Positions 1,714 to 7,771 of a stretch of 64,000 nt of DNA are shown here, in pieces (positions within the stretch are counted from its first letter, which is position 1; every line of letters begins with the position of its first letter). The stretch is from Microlunatus kandeliicorticis. Its GTDB lineage: Bacteria > Actinomycetota > Actinomycetes > Propionibacteriales > Propionibacteriaceae. The DNA lies in the NCBI RefSeq assembly GCF_014137855.1, contig NZ_JACGWT010000006.1, forward strand, positions 186,001 to 250,000, written 5' to 3'. The notes beneath the pieces are model-generated. The model searched no databases. It saw nothing but the letters and a program-made list of their open reading frames with translations, and had not been told where the DNA came from. A program made the translations under genes and the position numbers.

Positions 1714-2214
1714 TCAGGCGTCGGGTGTGCGATCGATGCTGAGGACGTTGACCACGACCGAGCCGGCGACGAGGCCCTGCTCCTCGAGGGCGTGCAGCAG
1801 CCGGAGCCGGAGGGTGCGGGCGATCACCCGGGCCTGGTGGCCGGCCCGGACCGAGACGTCCACCTCGACGTCGACGACGCCGTAGTGGTCGACCACCCGG
1901 GCGGAGCGGAACGGGACCCCGTCCGCGAAGGGGTGTGCGCCCGCGCGCAGCGACGGCTCGATCCGTGCCACGCCCGGCGTACCGGTGACCAGCTCGCTCA
2001 GGTGGGCAGCCAGGGCGGCCGGGGTCGGACGCACGACGCTCGTCCCCGCACCAGCAGGGCTTGGACCGGGCCGACGGACTGACGGCGCGATCCCCGTCGG
2101 GTCGAGGTGCCGGAGCGCGGGTCCCGGCTCACTGGTCGCGAGCGGCGCGCCCGACGGGCTGCTCGGGTCGTTGCGGGGGAAACGGTCGGAGGGGCGGAGT
2201 GACCGCTCACTCAT
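1714..2214 (-). CDS. Divergent Asp23/Gls24-like protein, last gene of the stress cluster
   Basis: 166 aa. The first ~60 residues are Pro/Ser/Arg-rich and look disordered. The C-terminal ~100 residues carry an Asp23-like pattern: an N-terminal helix (AALAAHLSELV), a strand with VVDHYGVVDVEVDVSV, and a final VVVNVLSID strand resembling the V-x-V-x-V-x-D end of the family. The start ATG at 2214 overlaps the stop of the upstream zinc-finger/Asp23 gene by 8 bases (ATGAGTGA), so translation is probably coupled. Asp23 proteins are cytosolic proteins bound to the membrane through AmaP and linked to cell-envelope stress. The homology is weaker than for the other copies in this cluster. Confidence 0.65.
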   Translation of the reverse strand: MSERSLRPSDRFPRNDPSSPSGAPLATSEPGPALRHLDPTGIAPSVRRPGPSPAGAGTSVVRPTPAALAAHLSELVTGTPGVARIEPSLRAGAHPFADGVPFRSARVVDHYGVVDVEVDVSVRAGHQARVIARTLRLRLLHALEEQGLVAGSVVVNVLSIDRTPDA

Positions 2215-2872
2215 CGTGCAGGTCCTGCACGCTGATGTCGATCTTCACCGGATCCATCCCCACCTCGTTCTCGACGGCCTCGCGGACGACCTGCCGCAGC
2301 TCGCTCGTGACCGCGGGGATCGACGCCGAGGCGGCGACACTGATCTGCAGCAACAGTGCCACACGCGCCGGACGCGGCTCCGGATCGGGTCCTGGGGTGG
2401 ACGTCGTCAAGCCGGTTCCGTCGGGCGCGACCGAGTCGTCGGCGACCGCATCGGACGCAACCCAGGGTCGCCGGCGGGGCAGCTCGATCCGCACCCGGCG
2501 CACCTCGACCCCGCGCACCGTGTCGCCCGCGCTCCGGACCACCGAGGCCAGGGCCTGCTCACTGACCGTCAGGTCGGCGGTCGGGCGGTGCGGCTCGGGC
2601 TCGTCGAGCGGCAGCCGCCGCCCGTGCCGCACCTCCGCGCGGGCGATGTCCATGATCCGCTCGAGCACCTGCGGGCTCGGCTGCAGCTCGGGGTCCTCGA
2701 CGTCACGACGCCGTTGCTCGGCGGTGACCTCGGCGAGCTGCGACAGGCTCGCGCGGGCGGCTCGGCAGTCCGGGCAGGTGCGTTCGTGGGCGTCCGGCGG
2801 CCGGTCGACACCGGCCCACACGTCGTCGATGTCGCGGCCGCAACCCAGGCGGGTCGACGTGCTCACCGCCAT
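2207..2872 (-). CDS. Zinc-finger (anti-sigma-type) / Asp23 fusion protein
   Basis: 221 aa. The N-terminus has C11, then HERTCPDC giving H29-x3-C33-x2-C36, the arrangement of the ZAS/zf-HC2 zinc-binding anti-sigma domain. A charged linker leads to an Asp23-like domain at about 95-221 with the typical end PVKIDISVQDLHDE. The ATG at 2872 overlaps the end of the ECF sigma factor gene (stop at 2863-2865), the usual position of a cognate anti-sigma gene. There is no membrane segment, unlike most anti-sigma factors. Inference: it may bind and hold the sigma factor and sense envelope state through the Asp23 part. An alternative is that the zinc finger is only structural. Confidence 0.8.
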   Translation of the reverse strand: MAVSTSTRLGCGRDIDDVWAGVDRPPDAHERTCPDCRAARASLSQLAEVTAEQRRRDVEDPELQPSPQVLERIMDIARAEVRHGRRLPLDEPEPHRPTADLTVSEQALASVVRSAGDTVRGVEVRRVRIELPRRRPWVASDAVADDSVAPDGTGLTTSTPGPDPEPRPARVALLLQISVAASASIPAVTSELRQVVREAVENEVGMDPVKIDISVQDLHDE

Positions 2873-3510
2873 GAGTCCATTCCCTTCGTGAGGTTCTGCC
2901 GGGCGCGTGCGATGCGACCGCGGACGGTCGAGAGCGGGAGGTTCATGGCGTAGGCGATCTCGGGATAGGTCAGTTCGTGCAGCTCGTGCAGCACCCAGCA
3001 GATCCGTTGGTCCTCCGGGAGGCCGGCGAGCAGGTCGGAGAGCCCCCGCAGCTGGGCGGACAGCTCCGCCGCCGAGGCCGGGTCGTCGTCGCGCGAGCCG
3101 AAGAGCGCCGCCCGGTCCCCGAGCACCTCGGCGAGCTCGTCGCCCTCGGCGGGATCGGTGCGGCGGCGGCCCCGGGTGCGGAGCACCGACAGGCACCGCC
3201 GCGTGACGATCTGGTAGATCCAGCTGTGGAAGGCCTCGGGATCGGTGAGGATCGGCAGCCGGCGCCAGGCCTGGACCAGGGCGTCCTGCAGGACGTCCTC
3301 GGCCTCTCCCCGATCGCCGAGCAGGCGGTACGCGAGTCGGAAGAGCGGCCCCTGGTAGCTGCGGGCGAGCTGCTCGAAGGCGTCGACGTCACCGTCCTGG
3401 GCGCGGCCGACGACGGTCGCCTCCCTGAGCTGCGCGGCACCATCGTCTCCCGTCCGCTCCTGCGTTCCCCTGGACTCGTCGGCCCCGTGACCGGATGGGC
3501 TGACGGTCAT
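2863..3510 (-). CDS. ECF (sigma-70 family) RNA polymerase sigma factor
   Basis: 215 aa. Sigma region 2 spans roughly 42-110, with the typical AYRLLGDRGEAEDVLQDA stretch for -10 recognition and core binding. Region 4 spans about 150-212, with the helix-turn-helix YPEIAYAMNLPLSTVRGRIARAR. The ~30-residue N-terminal extension is polar. It is overlapped by the zinc-finger/Asp23 gene downstream, which suggests sigma/anti-sigma coupling, and preceded 70 bases upstream by the histone-like gene. It probably directs the Asp23 cluster itself; no promoter consensus was verified. Confidence 0.93.
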   Translation of the reverse strand: MTVSPSGHGADESRGTQERTGDDGAAQLREATVVGRAQDGDVDAFEQLARSYQGPLFRLAYRLLGDRGEAEDVLQDALVQAWRRLPILTDPEAFHSWIYQIVTRRCLSVLRTRGRRRTDPAEGDELAEVLGDRAALFGSRDDDPASAAELSAQLRGLSDLLAGLPEDQRICWVLHELHELTYPEIAYAMNLPLSTVRGRIARARQNLTKGMDSWR

Positions 3511-3580: not shown

Positions 3581-3994
3581 TCATGCCCCGAGCTTCCGGA
3601 GCTTCTTCCGCGCCTCCTTACGAGCCTCCTTGGCCTGCCCGAGCCGCTCGTCGAGCTTGTCGAGCAGCTCCTCCGAGGCGCGGAGCGACTTCTTGACGTT
3701 GCGGGCCCGCTGGGCGTCGGCGGAGAGCTTCTGAGTCACCCGGGTCTCGAGCTTCTGGACGGTGGCCAGCTTCCGGTCGGCCTGCTCGAGCTGCTCGCGG
3801 GCCCGGGCCACCGCCTTCGGGTTGGCCACGGGCTGCGCCGACGTCTTCGCGGCCGGGCGCTTCGAGGCGGTCGTCGTTCCCGTGCTCGTGCCCGTGCTCT
3901 TGGTCGAGCTCTTCTTCGACGACGGCTTCGCGGCGGACGTCTTCTTCGCGGTGCTCTTCGTGCTCCTGCTGGCGGGCTTGGTCGCGGCGGCCAT
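3581..3994 (-). CDS. Lys/Ala/Ser/Thr-rich histone-like protein with C-terminal coiled coil
   Basis: 137 aa from the ATG at 3994, chosen because AGGAG lies 6 bases upstream. Residues ~1-60 are a low-complexity Ala/Lys/Ser/Thr tail resembling eukaryotic histone H1 and actinobacterial nucleoid-protein tails. Residues ~60-137 form a strongly helical, heptad-rich charged segment ending KEARKEARKKLRKLGA. No enzymatic motif is seen. It lies between the LEA-like Asp23 gene and the sigma factor in the same orientation. It may bind nucleic acid or act as a spacer/scaffold; the function is unknown. Confidence 0.7.
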   Translation of the reverse strand: MAAATKPASRSTKSTAKKTSAAKPSSKKSSTKSTGTSTGTTTASKRPAAKTSAQPVANPKAVARAREQLEQADRKLATVQKLETRVTQKLSADAQRARNVKKSLRASEELLDKLDERLGQAKEARKEARKKLRKLGA

Positions 3995-4042: not shown

Positions 4043-4981
4043 TCAGTGGTCGCGGCGCTCACCCTCGTGGTGGTCGCCCTCGTGGTGATCGTGCTCGAGG
4101 TGCCCGACCTCGTGGTGCTCGTGCTCGGCGTGCTCGCCCCCGGCGTGCTCGGTCTCCGCCGGGGCGACGGTCACGGTGCGGGTCTCGGTGACGGTCACCG
4201 TCTCCTGCGGCGTGTCCTGCAGCCGTTCGACGATCTCTGCGGCGAGATCGGCCGCCGGCTCGCTCGCCTCGGCGCGGCGCTCGTCGAGACGGTCGACGCC
4301 CGCGTCGATCGCCGCGGCCGCGGAGTCGGCGGCGTCGGCCGCCGCGTCCTTGGCCTCGGCGGCCTTCTCGGCGGCCACGTCCCGGGCCTCGGCGGTTTTC
4401 TCGGCCGCGGCGTCACGCGCCTGGCTCGCGGTCTCCCCTGCTCGCTCGGCGGCGTCGGACGCCGCCTGCTTGGCCTTGCGGGCCGAGTCGCCGGCAATCT
4501 GCCGCACCCGGTCCGCCTGCTCGGCGGCCAGCCGGCGCAGGTCCTCGTCCCAGCGGTCCTGCTGCTCCTGCGGAAGTTTGAGGTCGTCGACGGACACGTC
4601 GACCCGGACCACGTCGAGACCGGTGCGGGTGTGCACCGCGTCGCTCACCGCCTGGCGGACCCGGTCGCTGACCTCGGGGGCGGAGGTGCCGTAGTCGATC
4701 ACCAGACCGAGGTCGAGCGCGATCGCGCCCCGACCGACCTCGGCGCTCATCCCGGTGGCCGACACCAGCCGGGAGCCCTGCACCCGGCGCACCGACCCGC
4801 TGAGCCGGCGTCGGAGGGTGGACCCGAGATCGTGCACCCCCGGCACCGCCACGGCGGCGGCGCGGGCCGCCTCGAGAGCCTTGGTCTCGGGCTTGGGTGC
4901 CTCCTGGCCCACCGGGGCGAGTGCCGGTCGGGTCTCCTGCCGAACGTCCTGCGTCGTCTCCTGCCGGGTGGGGTCAGCCAT
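4043..4981 (-). CDS. Asp23-domain protein with Ala-rich coiled coil and His-rich C-terminal tail
   Basis: 312 aa with three parts. Residues ~35-145 are a good Asp23/Gls24 domain (ALDLGLVIDYGTSAPEVSD, then VVRVDVSVDDLKLP). Residues ~150-255 are an Ala/Lys/Glu-rich amphipathic repeat (AAEKTAEARDVAAEKAAEAK) of the type seen in LEA and apolipoprotein-like stress proteins. The last 34 residues contain 12 histidines and many acidic residues. Ordinary Asp23 proteins are about 120-180 aa, so this is an extended form. It sits between AmaP-like and histone-like genes. A role coating or protecting the membrane and binding metal through the tail is inference. Confidence 0.85.
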   Translation of the reverse strand: MADPTRQETTQDVRQETRPALAPVGQEAPKPETKALEAARAAAVAVPGVHDLGSTLRRRLSGSVRRVQGSRLVSATGMSAEVGRGAIALDLGLVIDYGTSAPEVSDRVRQAVSDAVHTRTGLDVVRVDVSVDDLKLPQEQQDRWDEDLRRLAAEQADRVRQIAGDSARKAKQAASDAAERAGETASQARDAAAEKTAEARDVAAEKAAEAKDAAADAADSAAAAIDAGVDRLDERRAEASEPAADLAAEIVERLQDTPQETVTVTETRTVTVAPAETEHAGGEHAEHEHHEVGHLEHDHHEGDHHEGERRDH

Positions 4982-5084: not shown

Positions 5085-5696
5085 TCAGACGGTGACCGCG
5101 CGCTCGCTGCGGCGGCCGCGGTCGACCTCGACCAGCACGCCGAACCGCTGCACCGGGGCTTCGAGCGCCTGACCGAGGCCGGCCGCGACCGTGCTCTCCA
5201 ACTGGCCCATCAGCCCGCTGAGATCGGCCCGGTCCGCGCAGGTCACCTTGAGGGTGAGCTCCGGCCGGTCGGCCGTGCCACGCAGCACCGCGGACGCGTC
5301 GGTGACGCCAGGGAACGCCTTGGTCTGGGTCTCGACCGCGTCGGTCAGCACCTTGGGTTCGCACCGGGTCAGCCCGTGCTCGGTCGAGTCGTGCAACCGG
5401 AACGGCCGGGCCTGGTTGGTGCGGGGCACCTGGGCGATCAGCCACGCCAGGCCGAGCAGCGCCAGCACCACGCCGACGAGGATGACCACCACGATCACCC
5501 AGCTCTGGTTCCAGACGCTGCCGCCGGGCAGCAGCTTGGTGCCGTCGGCCGGAGCCCGGAGGCTCAGCCCGGTGGCCCGGCCGATGCTGGGCAGCAGCCC
5601 GGCCCGGGCGATCCCGGCCACAGCGGCGGCGATGATCAGCACCAGGCCGATCACGGCGAGCCAGCCGCGGTTGAGTGCGGAAGCCGTCTGTCGCAT
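5085..5696 (-). CDS. amaP: AmaP-like alkaline-shock membrane anchor protein
   Basis: 203 aa. Two hydrophobic segments (about 12-33 and 66-88) bracket a short loop; the remaining ~110 residues are cytosolic and end in an Asp23-like strand pattern (RFGVLVEVDRGRR). This is the build of AmaP, which tethers Asp23 to the membrane in staphylococci. The ATG at 5696 shares one base with the stop of the upstream DUF6286-type gene (TGATG), so the two are coupled. Its partners are probably the neighbouring Asp23 proteins. The symbol is given by family resemblance only. Confidence 0.78.
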   Translation of the reverse strand: MRQTASALNRGWLAVIGLVLIIAAAVAGIARAGLLPSIGRATGLSLRAPADGTKLLPGGSVWNQSWVIVVVILVGVVLALLGLAWLIAQVPRTNQARPFRLHDSTEHGLTRCEPKVLTDAVETQTKAFPGVTDASAVLRGTADRPELTLKVTCADRADLSGLMGQLESTVAAGLGQALEAPVQRFGVLVEVDRGRRSERAVTV

Positions 5697-6271
5697 CAGA
5701 TCCCCCTCGTGTGGACGCTCACGCTGACCCGCGCGGCGGGCTGCACCCCCGCGGCGGAGAGCCGCTGGCTGACCGCCTGCTGCACCCGGTCGCGGAGCTG
5801 CCGCGCCTCGGCGTCGGTGGCGGTCGTGACGGCGACCCGGACGCGGTGTCCGCCGGCCGAGGCCGAGACCCGCTCCACGCCGTCGATCTCCTCGGCGGTG
5901 GCCGCGGCCAGCCGGGCCAGCCCGCGCTGCGAGATCACGAACTCGGTCTGGGCGGCGACCCCGGCGCCGCCGGCGGCCAGCCGGGCCGACGTGTAGCCGC
6001 CCGGGATGATCGCGGCCAGCAGCAGCACCAGACCGATCACGCCGACACCGATCACGATGCCCAGGAAGGCGCCGGAGCCCCAGGTCAGGCCGGCCAGGCC
6101 CTTCGCCCCGGAGCGCACCGGAGCGGCCCAGCTGCCGTCGATCAGGCGGAAGACGCCGGCCAGCACGGCCAGCACCCCCGCGGCCAGCAGCACCAGCGCG
6201 ACGATCGAGGCCGGTACGGTCCGGCTCGGGCGCCGACGCAGTCGGCGCGAGCGCGCGTCCGAGCGACTCAT
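5696..6271 (-). CDS. DUF6286-type membrane protein of the Asp23 cluster
   Basis: 191 aa. A basic N-terminus (RRLRRRPSR) is followed by two membrane segments (about 20-43 and 67-90). A soluble C-terminal domain follows with alternating strands and helices (EIDGVERVSASAGGHRVRV ... ARVSVSVHTRG) that resembles the Asp23 fold. Proteins of this shape regularly accompany Asp23 and AmaP genes in actinobacteria. It overlaps its upstream Asp23 neighbour by the ATGA at 6268-6271 and its downstream AmaP-like neighbour by one base. Its biochemical role is not established. Confidence 0.75.
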   Translation of the reverse strand: MSRSDARSRRLRRRPSRTVPASIVALVLLAAGVLAVLAGVFRLIDGSWAAPVRSGAKGLAGLTWGSGAFLGIVIGVGVIGLVLLLAAIIPGGYTSARLAAGGAGVAAQTEFVISQRGLARLAAATAEEIDGVERVSASAGGHRVRVAVTTATDAEARQLRDRVQQAVSQRLSAAGVQPAARVSVSVHTRGI

Positions 6272-6705
6272 CGCAGTTCCCTCCTGCCGTCCCGGCCCTC
6301 AGCGGCGCGCTCGGCGCCGGGGACGGCCAGGAACTCCACGTCGATGTCGACCCGCCGGACCTGGACGCCGGTGAGCCGGGCCACCCGCTCGGCGACGACG
6401 GACCGGATCTGGTCCGTGGCCCGTCGCAGCGAGGCCGGGTAGGCGATGCCGACGCTGATGGCCAGGTCGGCGGTGTTGGTCGCCGTCGACAGGTCGACGT
6501 CGACCTTGGGTCGTGCACTGCGGTCGGCCTTGGCCCCGATCCCGAGGAAGCCCCCGGAGGTGCCGTAGGAGACCCCGACCTCGGCGACGACCTGCGCGGC
6601 GATCTTCTCGACCACGCCGTCCGCCAGGACCAGTCGTCCGCGACGGGCGGCGTCCGAGGTCCCCCGGCCGGGGTGTCCGGCCAGGGCGGGCGCCGCGGTG
6701 CTCAT
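6268..6705 (-). CDS. Asp23/Gls24 family envelope stress protein
   Basis: 145 aa from the ATG at 6705. It begins with the classic GRLVLADGVVEKIAAQVVAE helix and continues with ADLAISVGIAYPASLRRATD, then GVQVRRVDIDVEFL, covering a complete Asp23 domain of the usual length. A GGFLGIG insert is present between the first helix and the first long strand. The start overlaps the stop of the small membrane protein gene (ATGA). It is a cytosolic protein expected to bind the membrane via the AmaP-like/DUF6286 proteins encoded next to it. Confidence 0.9.
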   Translation of the reverse strand: MSTAAPALAGHPGRGTSDAARRGRLVLADGVVEKIAAQVVAEVGVSYGTSGGFLGIGAKADRSARPKVDVDLSTATNTADLAISVGIAYPASLRRATDQIRSVVAERVARLTGVQVRRVDIDVEFLAVPGAERAAEGRDGRRELR

Positions 6706-6884
6706 CGCTTCTCGGTGCTGCGCCCGAGGACGCCCTGCACGTCGAGCCGGCCGTCGAGGACCAGACCGACCACCAGGCCGATCGCCCCGAAGACGGCGAC
6801 GATCACGAAGGACCCGAAGGTCCCGAAGGCGGCCGTCACCCCCAGCACCAGGCCGACGAACAAGGCCACTGTGACTCGCGACAT
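6702..6884 (-). CDS. Small (60 aa) two-helix membrane protein of the Asp23 operon
   Basis: 60 aa. Two hydrophobic helices (about 5-22 and 25-44) are separated by a short GTFG turn, followed by a polar tail LDGRLDVQGVLGRSTEKR. This matches the DUF2273-type small proteins that precede Asp23 genes in Gram-positive bacteria. The stop overlaps the next Asp23 start (ATGA). It is the first gene of the apparent operon 6884-5085. GAGGAAAC lies just upstream of the ATG. Confidence 0.78.
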   Translation of the reverse strand: MSRVTVALFVGLVLGVTAAFGTFGSFVIVAVFGAIGLVVGLVLDGRLDVQGVLGRSTEKR

Positions 6885-7124: not shown

Positions 7125-7643
7125 TCAGCGCAGCCCCTCCGACGAGGACGAGCCGGTGTCGGCGTCGTCGTCGTCCTCGGGCAGGTGGACGTCGGTCACG
7201 TTGACGTTCACGCCGACGACCTCGAGGCCGGTGCCGTACTCGACGGCGTTGATCACGTTCTCGCGGATCTGGTCGGCCACGTTCACGATGGAGACGCCGT
7301 AGTCGACGACGATCGCGATCTCGATGGCGGTCTGCCGCTCACCCTTCTCGACCGAGACCCCGCCGCTGACGTTGGTCTGGCCGCCGGGGATCCGCTGCGC
7401 GAGCTGGTTGATCGCGCGGCGCGCGGCGTTGCCCATGGCGAACACGCCCGGCACCTCGCGAGCGGCGATGCCGGCGATCTTGGCGACGACGGTGTCGGCG
7501 ATGCTGGTGTCACCGTGCTCGGTGTGCAGCGCGTCGAGCTCCTTCGGCTGCTGCTGCTCCTGGGCCTTCGCCTGCTCCTTGGCCGCCTTGGCCTCAGCCT
7601 GGCGACGCTCTTCACCCGTGGCCGGGACAACGGACTGCGACAT
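7125..7643 (-). CDS. Asp23/Gls24 family envelope stress protein (first copy of cluster)
   Basis: 172 aa from the ATG at 7643. A Gln/Lys/Glu-rich N-terminal helix (residues ~9-40) precedes a full Asp23 domain (SIADTVVAKIAGIAAREVPG, then AIEIAIVVDYGVSI, then VVGVNVNVTDVHLP). The C-terminus is an acidic run (EDDDDAD) with a Ser stretch. This is the copy most like canonical actinobacterial Asp23. It has its own upstream region and is separated from the next operon by a hairpin, so it may be expressed separately and most strongly. Confidence 0.92.
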   Translation of the reverse strand: MSQSVVPATGEERRQAEAKAAKEQAKAQEQQQPKELDALHTEHGDTSIADTVVAKIAGIAAREVPGVFAMGNAARRAINQLAQRIPGGQTNVSGGVSVEKGERQTAIEIAIVVDYGVSIVNVADQIRENVINAVEYGTGLEVVGVNVNVTDVHLPEDDDDADTGSSSSEGLR

Positions 7644-7771
7644 GTTCCGAACTCCTTCGCTGTGTGAGGACCTTGCACCCATGAAGACGCTCCCGGCGGG
7701 AGCTTCGTCACGGGCCGGCACGAACTTTTTCCGATCAGGTGTTGATCTTGGTGCCGGAGCTGAGACGAGGC

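Follow-up and report, generated by a model that had tools for sequence, protein, structure and literature searches.

The Asp23 cluster and its sigma gene

The window analysed here, a stretch of 64,000 nucleotides, belongs to the genome of Microlunatus kandeliicorticis, a 4.3-Mb draft in 9 contigs. Its minus strand carries a cluster of ten genes, which are described in the order in which they follow one another on that strand. The first is a canonical asp23 gene (7125..7646, 173 aa, start codon chosen manually), whose product matches the Pfam Asp23 family at 97.3 bits. It is followed by an ORF of 60 aa (6702..6884), hydrophobic by eye, by a second Asp23-family protein of 145 aa (6268..6705, 38 bits against a cut-off of 28, start chosen manually), and by a DUF6286 protein of 191 aa (5696..6271, 82.8 bits against a cut-off of 35). 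Next comes an AmaP-like membrane anchor of 203 aa (5085..5696, start chosen manually), which scores 48 bits against anchor_AmaP and thus falls below the cut-off of 55. Relatives of this anchor and of the 60-aa small protein are found in most asp23 clusters of the genus genomes compared.

Two further genes separate the amaP-like gene from the sigma gene. One encodes a third Asp23 protein of 312 aa (4043..4981, Pfam E 8.7e-15), with an Ala/Lys/Glu-rich, LEA-like stretch that matches LEA_4 below the Pfam cut-off, and with a His-rich tail as a possible metal-binding site. The other, just 5' of the sigma gene, encodes a Lys/Ala-rich protein of 137 aa (3581-3994) with weak matches to coiled-coil families only.

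The sigma gene itself (2863..3510) encodes an ECF sigma factor of 215 aa whose regions 2 and 4 are both recognized by Pfam above the cut-off (Sigma70_r2, E 2.7e-16; Sigma70_r4_2, E 7.8e-13), with NCBIfam matches as well. The gene that follows (2207..2872, ATG at 2872, stop at 2207) encodes a fusion protein of 221 aa, in which a putative zinc anti-sigma domain with C11, H29, C33 and C36 precedes an Asp23-fold domain at about residues 100-219. The two genes overlap by 10 nt (2863..2872, minus strand, ATGGCGGTGA), a stretch shared by the Trp-Arg-stop of the sigma gene and the Met-Ala start of the fusion; since it is doubly constrained, its conservation should not be taken as a sign of protein function. 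The initial annotation had described an ECF sigma gene overlapping a downstream gene, which the ORFs, the Pfam matches and the 10-nt overlap bear out, and it had placed the four Cys and His residues correctly in the 221-aa reading frame.

A third gene (1714..2214, minus strand, 166 aa) overlaps the fusion gene by 8 nt and completes the pair operon. Its product matches no Pfam or NCBIfam family above the cut-off, and hhalign assigns it to the asp23 family at 75% and to sigma factors at 0.1%, which marks it as a divergent Asp23-like protein. A relative of it lies directly after the fusion gene in 33 of the 60 sigma-fusion pairs collected in this work and in 12 of 12 pairs from a set of named genomes. 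One may speculate that the third gene product either partners the sensor domain or competes with it.

The zinc part of the fusion protein

The four residues had been taken for the zinc motif of the ZAS anti-sigma factors, and this claim holds in part. The H-x3-C-x2-C motif is present in the window fusion (H29, C33, C36), but the fourth ligand, a Cys, stands 18 residues before the His, whereas the ZAS definition places this ligand, a Cys or His, 23-26 residues ahead of the motif (PMC4960319). The corresponding spacing is 18-22 residues in 46 of 47 relatives measured and 29 in the remaining one.

An alignment of the window protein with 22 relatives, 23 members in all, shows no variation at C11, H29, C33 or C36. 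Over a wider set, all four ligands (CHCC) are retained in 49 of 61 members when judged by alignment column, and in 46 of 60 by a stricter pattern. The 12 other members of the 61 lack anywhere from one ligand to all four and keep both the sigma pair and the Asp23 part; their forms are CDCC (2), CECC (1), CRCC (1), a single Cys (7) and that of L084 (1), the N-terminus of which is unlike those of the other members. Loci with replaced or reduced ligands and a retained pair (L091-L094, L096-L098, L111, L113, L114, L118) come mostly from one actinobacterial family (f39), and a Microbacterium plasmid (L207) carries a similar form.

The relationship of this part to known anti-sigma domains was assessed by profile comparison. 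When 48 motif-bearing N-termini of the fusion family were aligned by hhalign to 34 zf-HC2 domains encoded in 13 genomes of the genus, a match of 91.7% was obtained, in which Cys, His, Cys and Cys of the fusion are paired with Cys, His, Cys and Cys of zf-HC2. As both sets had been selected for the motif, the control kept the motif columns fixed and shuffled the rest, and none of 200 such shuffles scored as high as the actual match. With smaller sets the same comparison gave 22%. The zf-HC2 domains of the genus are themselves tied to characterized structures, for ten reference domains match PDB entry 3hug (which we take to be RslA), RsrA, RsiW and DdvA at E <= 5e-7, and ChrR at E 0.013.

Neither Pfam (zf-HC2 included) nor NCBIfam recognizes an anti-sigma family in the window fusion, and among ten relatives one reaches E 0.078 with Pfam zf-HC2 and one E 0.0086 with an NCBIfam anti-sigma family, far below the cut-off. 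PDB sequence searches with the fusion alignments returned no meaningful match. Foldseek with the N-terminal model returned 13 weak matches (best E 3.1), with no anti-sigma structure among them. The model of this region contains four predicted helices, at residues 15-20, 28-32, 34-59 and 67-83.

Class I anti-sigma factors include mixed groups with and without zinc (PMC7406223). Given that ligands are absent in 12 of the 61 members, zinc in the fusion family is more likely to have a structural role than to be a universal sensor.

The Asp23 part of the fusion protein

Pfam alone gives a weak indication of the C-terminal domain, as PF03780 (Asp23) scores 27.3 bits on the window fusion against a cut-off of 28 and covers the C-terminal half only; at E <= 1 it matches all 13 members of one sequence set (A4). 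The assignment made in the initial annotation is nevertheless sustained by two other lines of evidence. An hhalign comparison of the Asp23 part with the canonical Asp23 proteins encoded in these clusters reaches 97.1%, and in the structure predicted by AlphaFold (13-row alignment, mean pLDDT 79.4, pTM 0.53) a b-a-b-b-a-b domain follows the four helices. In a Foldseek search with the full model, the best 50 of 957 matches are led by C-terminal domains of MamM, in alignments that span about the length of the Asp23 part. Judging from model and sequence only, the fusion protein appears to be without a membrane helix. Since the Asp23 part is kept in those 12 of 61 members that have lost zinc ligands, it is the likelier sensor rather than the zinc site.

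Distribution and association with asp23

For a wider comparison, 76 loci (20 + 56) were fetched that had been selected by a match to the fusion or to its Asp23 part. In 57 of them we found 60 sigma-fusion pairs, with the sigma gene directly before the fusion gene; the overlap is 10 nt in 54 pairs, 22 nt in three and 4 nt in three. Most of the 19 loci without a pair had been fetched on a match to the Asp23 part only, and this count includes L071, which was scored as having no pair though it carries a single sigma-Asp23 frame (see below). A canonical asp23 gene lies within the locus for 55 of the 60 pairs. The nearest asp23 is on the same strand in 19, and the pair and asp23 occur in both same-strand and divergent arrangements. 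Named carriers include Microlunatus, Arthrobacter, Nocardia and Acaricomes; three of the 12 named pairs are repeats of other genomes in the sample. In the genome of M. kandeliicorticis there are three asp23 loci, and a separate pair accompanies each of them.

The near-whole fusion profile is matched at E <= 2.9e-20 by 39 of 394 genomes of the class, the genome studied here included, with 43 matches in all. Among the matches listed outside the class in the phylum sample (296, E <= 1e-10), all but one cover the Asp23 part only; the exception, G685, covers profile positions 34-197. Four plasmid records also match the fusion, three from Streptomyces and one from Microbacterium, with the annotation 'Asp23/Gls24 family', and a gene annotated as 'RNA polymerase sigma factor' lies directly before the fusion relative in the two plasmids whose surroundings were retrieved. 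The family label 'Streptomyces-like' used below is presumed from such named plasmid relatives. In the Streptomyces-like loci L072-L081, L083 and L085-L089, a protein consisting of helix 4 plus an Asp23 part is encoded near asp23, with no paired sigma gene.

Presence and absence of the fusion were compared within 20 genomes of the genus. All ten genomes with a fusion have asp23, and none of the ten taken as lacking it does, a group that includes some incomplete drafts and one genome (G013) with a marginal fusion match at E 6.5e-4. Outside the genus, asp23 was found in one of ten genomes from other members of the family taken as lacking the fusion, and there the cluster is cut by the contig end; this set contains G026, with a marginal match at E 6.0e-4, and leaves out G031. 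In many soil actinobacteria, a sigma gene thus adjoins the gene of a small, probably zinc-binding protein whose other half resembles a subunit of the coat lining the cell membrane, and the sequences suggest that this sigma factor activates the coat genes.

A promoter-like motif upstream of asp23

An ECF-type promoter is predicted upstream of the canonical asp23 gene of the window (7681..7711, minus strand, GTGACG - 16 nt - CGTCTT). The pattern GTGACG-N15/16-CGTCTT was first seen by eye upstream of asp23 genes of the genus and was scored afterwards, so the consensus is a post hoc one. A first open motif count had put TGACG-N16-CGTC at the top for asp23 upstreams (13 of 86), a noisy result given that shuffles reached up to 10. 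The scoring model was trained on 12 sites of the genus, and its 1% threshold was calibrated on 3000 stretches of 300 nt drawn at random from the same loci.

In the training group, 13 of 17 asp23 upstreams pass, a figure that is not independent of the model. Of the held-out asp23 upstreams that bear a pair, 15 of 47 pass, and these are unevenly distributed: 6/6 in Arthrobacter, several being near copies of few sequences, 5/10 in the f39 family, 2/5 in f6/f7, 1/9 in the Streptomyces-like pair loci, 1/5 in other members of the order, 0/3 in Nocardia, Acaricomes and a MAG, and 0/9 in f20. Seven loci (L039, L071, L082, L084, L099, L127, L128) stand outside these groups, L127 and L128 being repeat genomes of the training group. 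Upstream of the sigma genes, 2 of 68 stretches pass. By a simpler consensus count, all ten f39 upstreams carry the motif, against a null of 0.12. The motif thus appears good in the genus, in Arthrobacter and in f39.

A comparison of asp23 loci with and without a pair was possible among the Streptomyces-like loci. None of 16 loci without a pair (15 genomes) passes the model, and as the pair loci of the same kind score 1/9, the two figures do not differ. The simpler consensus count gives 4/9 for pair loci (null 0.20) and 2/16 for the others (null 0.11), and the half-site GTGACG occurs no more than 200 nt away from asp23 in 4/9 and 0/16, respectively. An open 6-mer search between the same two sets chose another word, which 18 of 500 label shuffles equalled. 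A looser Streptomyces-like pattern, with 8/9 against 0/16, was given no weight because it was written after the pair loci had been seen. The promoter contrast between loci with and without a pair is therefore weak.

The pattern is also found elsewhere in the genomes. A search of nine genomes of the genus returned 99 matches against 18 for the reversed control, and in the genome of M. kandeliicorticis 11 matches (control 0), two of them at asp23 (C6 and C2). Several matches recur near letter for letter across genomes and resemble coding sequence. We infer that the sigma factor of the window may recognize the GTGACG/CGTCTT promoter.

Natural fusion of a sigma factor with an Asp23-like domain

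In two of 120 genomes of the f20 family (G219 and G795), which represent two species of one genus, a single frame combines sigma regions with the helix-4 stretch and with an Asp23-like domain (L071, 4965-6491, and L209, 1474-2982, both on the minus strand). The two frames are 71% identical, and neither has a zinc motif between its sigma and Asp23-like parts. In the G219 frame, Pfam recognizes Sigma70_r2 and Sigma70_r4_2 above and DUF6286 below the cut-off, with no Pfam match to Asp23; the Asp23-like part of the two frames is detected by the fusion-family profile only, at E 5e-18 and 1e-16. Of all the observations, this natural fusion hints most strongly that the sigma factor and the Asp23 domain cooperate. 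As the zinc domain is absent from it, that domain would not be needed everywhere. The helix at 67-83 of the fusion protein persists in the single frame, which would fit helix 4 as a sigma contact.

The fit between partners was also examined in five genomes that carry the pair in two or three copies. By distance data, the actual pairing is the best of 96 (0.87, with the next at 0.85 and a mean of 0.10), a result that linkage alone could explain.

Relation to known systems

The initial annotation had presented the zinc-finger/Asp23 fusion as a candidate new class of anti-sigma factor, and this claim to novelty does not hold. A 2022 review, citing Casas-Pastor 2021, describes the sigma groups ECF286 and ECF292 as adjoining soluble Asp23 proteins that are predicted to be anti-sigma factors, with examples in Streptomyces and Mycolicibacterium (PMC8999054). 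The ECF sigma gene of the window likewise adjoins an Asp23-family protein that is a candidate anti-sigma factor. The passages that describe those groups name no zinc domain, promoter or fusion (PMC8999054). Our searches of the open-licence literature turned up no account of the zinc/Asp23 architecture, of the promoter or of a single-chain fusion.

With the class I ZAS factors (RsrA, RslA, ChrR, RsiW) the window fusion shares the H-x3-C-x2-C motif with an upstream Cys, an adjoining ECF sigma gene and four predicted helices; unlike them, it has its upstream Cys at 18 instead of 23-26 residues and a C-terminal Asp23 domain, and several relatives lack zinc ligands. ChrR combines a zinc anti-sigma domain with a cupin sensor domain (PMC8999054) and is similar in being a soluble protein of two domains with the sensor at the C-terminus, but the sensor proposed here is an Asp23 domain.

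Asp23 proteins are widespread in Gram-positive bacteria, and the mechanisms by which they function are described as unresolved (PMC6954212). In Staphylococcus aureus, Asp23 polymerises and is tethered by AmaP, and cells that lose asp23 or amaP turn on cell-wall stress genes (PMC6954212). The actinobacterial cluster resembles this system in its Asp23 proteins and AmaP-type anchor, and it differs in that it includes a sigma gene of its own together with a candidate regulator that resembles a coat subunit.

A proposed coat-sensing anti-sigma factor and its alternatives

Given the promoter motif at asp23, the co-occurrence within the genus and the single-frame fusion, the pair is tied to the Asp23 coat. 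We consider, with moderate confidence, that it probably consists of an ECF sigma factor and a soluble anti-sigma factor dedicated to the Asp23/AmaP coat operon, with the Asp23 domain sensing the coat. The initial annotation had proposed that such sensing could run through binding of the Asp23 domain to the AmaP-anchored coat. Its anti-sigma reading and the coat link are strengthened by the conserved gene overlap, the promoter motif at asp23, the co-occurrence and the natural fusion, and binding to the coat would be one way to realize them.

In such a system, the zinc domain and helix 4 would hold the sigma factor, by analogy with class I anti-sigma factors, in which helix 4 contacts sigma region 2 and helix 1 contacts region 4 (PMC7406223). 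The Asp23 domain would act as a coat-like subunit that reports the state of the coat, the simplest means being that it binds Asp23-family proteins or the coat anchored by AmaP. A disturbance of the coat, or the availability of free partners, would release the sigma factor, which would then drive asp23-amaP transcription from the GTGACG/CGTCTT promoter. Wherever the pair follows amaP in the same orientation, the sigma factor would in addition boost its own level. A sensor of coat state is favoured by what is known from S. aureus, where Asp23 forms a tethered polymer and its loss evokes a stress response. Binding, inhibition, promoter recognition, and the signal with its direction, are what we infer from sequence.

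An alternative that we regard as unlikely places the input in the zinc site. As in RsrA, thiol stress would oxidise C11, C33 and C36, zinc would be lost and the sigma factor freed, and the Asp23 domain would merely position the protein at the coat. Such a role is consistent with the retention of CHCC in 49 of 61 members and with the finding that the N-terminal Cys of the RsrA CHCC is required for the redox response (PMC4960319). Against it, 12 of 61 members keep the pair with one to all ligands gone, the promoter model passes 5 of 10 asp23 upstreams in the ligand-poor, mostly f39 group, and the zinc may be structural, as in RsiW (PMC7406223). Redox as the main input was demoted on account of the ligands missing in those 12 members.

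It is still less probable that the fusion protein belongs to the coat and partners the sigma factor without inhibiting it. In that case it would bring the sigma factor to the membrane or aid it, and activity would be fixed by the expression of the sigma gene alone. The zinc-less sigma-Asp23 frame, in which a sigma factor itself carries an Asp23-like domain, would suit this role, but the zinc part of the fusion protein resembles anti-sigma domains and the gene order is typical of anti-sigma factors. That the pair controls something else and lies beside asp23 by mere synteny is very improbable, for even with just 15 of 47 held-out asp23 upstreams passing the model and further matches of the pattern in the genome, the co-occurrence of asp23 and pair in the genus, the presence of both same-strand and divergent arrangements around asp23 and the single-frame sigma-Asp23 fusion all speak against it.

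Implications for Asp23 biology

Within the preferred reading of a coat-sensing anti-sigma factor, a more specific possibility can be put forward tentatively: the anti-sigma factor may be a modified coat subunit, so that the amount of free sigma factor depends directly on the assembly state of the coat, and in one genus the sigma factor and the coat-like sensor may have become a single polypeptide. If true, the coat would govern its own synthesis via a counterfeit subunit that joins, or is displaced from, the Asp23 polymer at the membrane.

The analysis provides a testable wiring for Asp23, with a dedicated sigma factor, a coat-like anti-sigma candidate and a predicted coat-operon promoter. It also suggests a function for sigma groups that have hitherto been described by their gene neighbourhood. 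More generally, this may be a case in which a structure regulates its own genes via a look-alike subunit, and by which the cell may sense its own coat.
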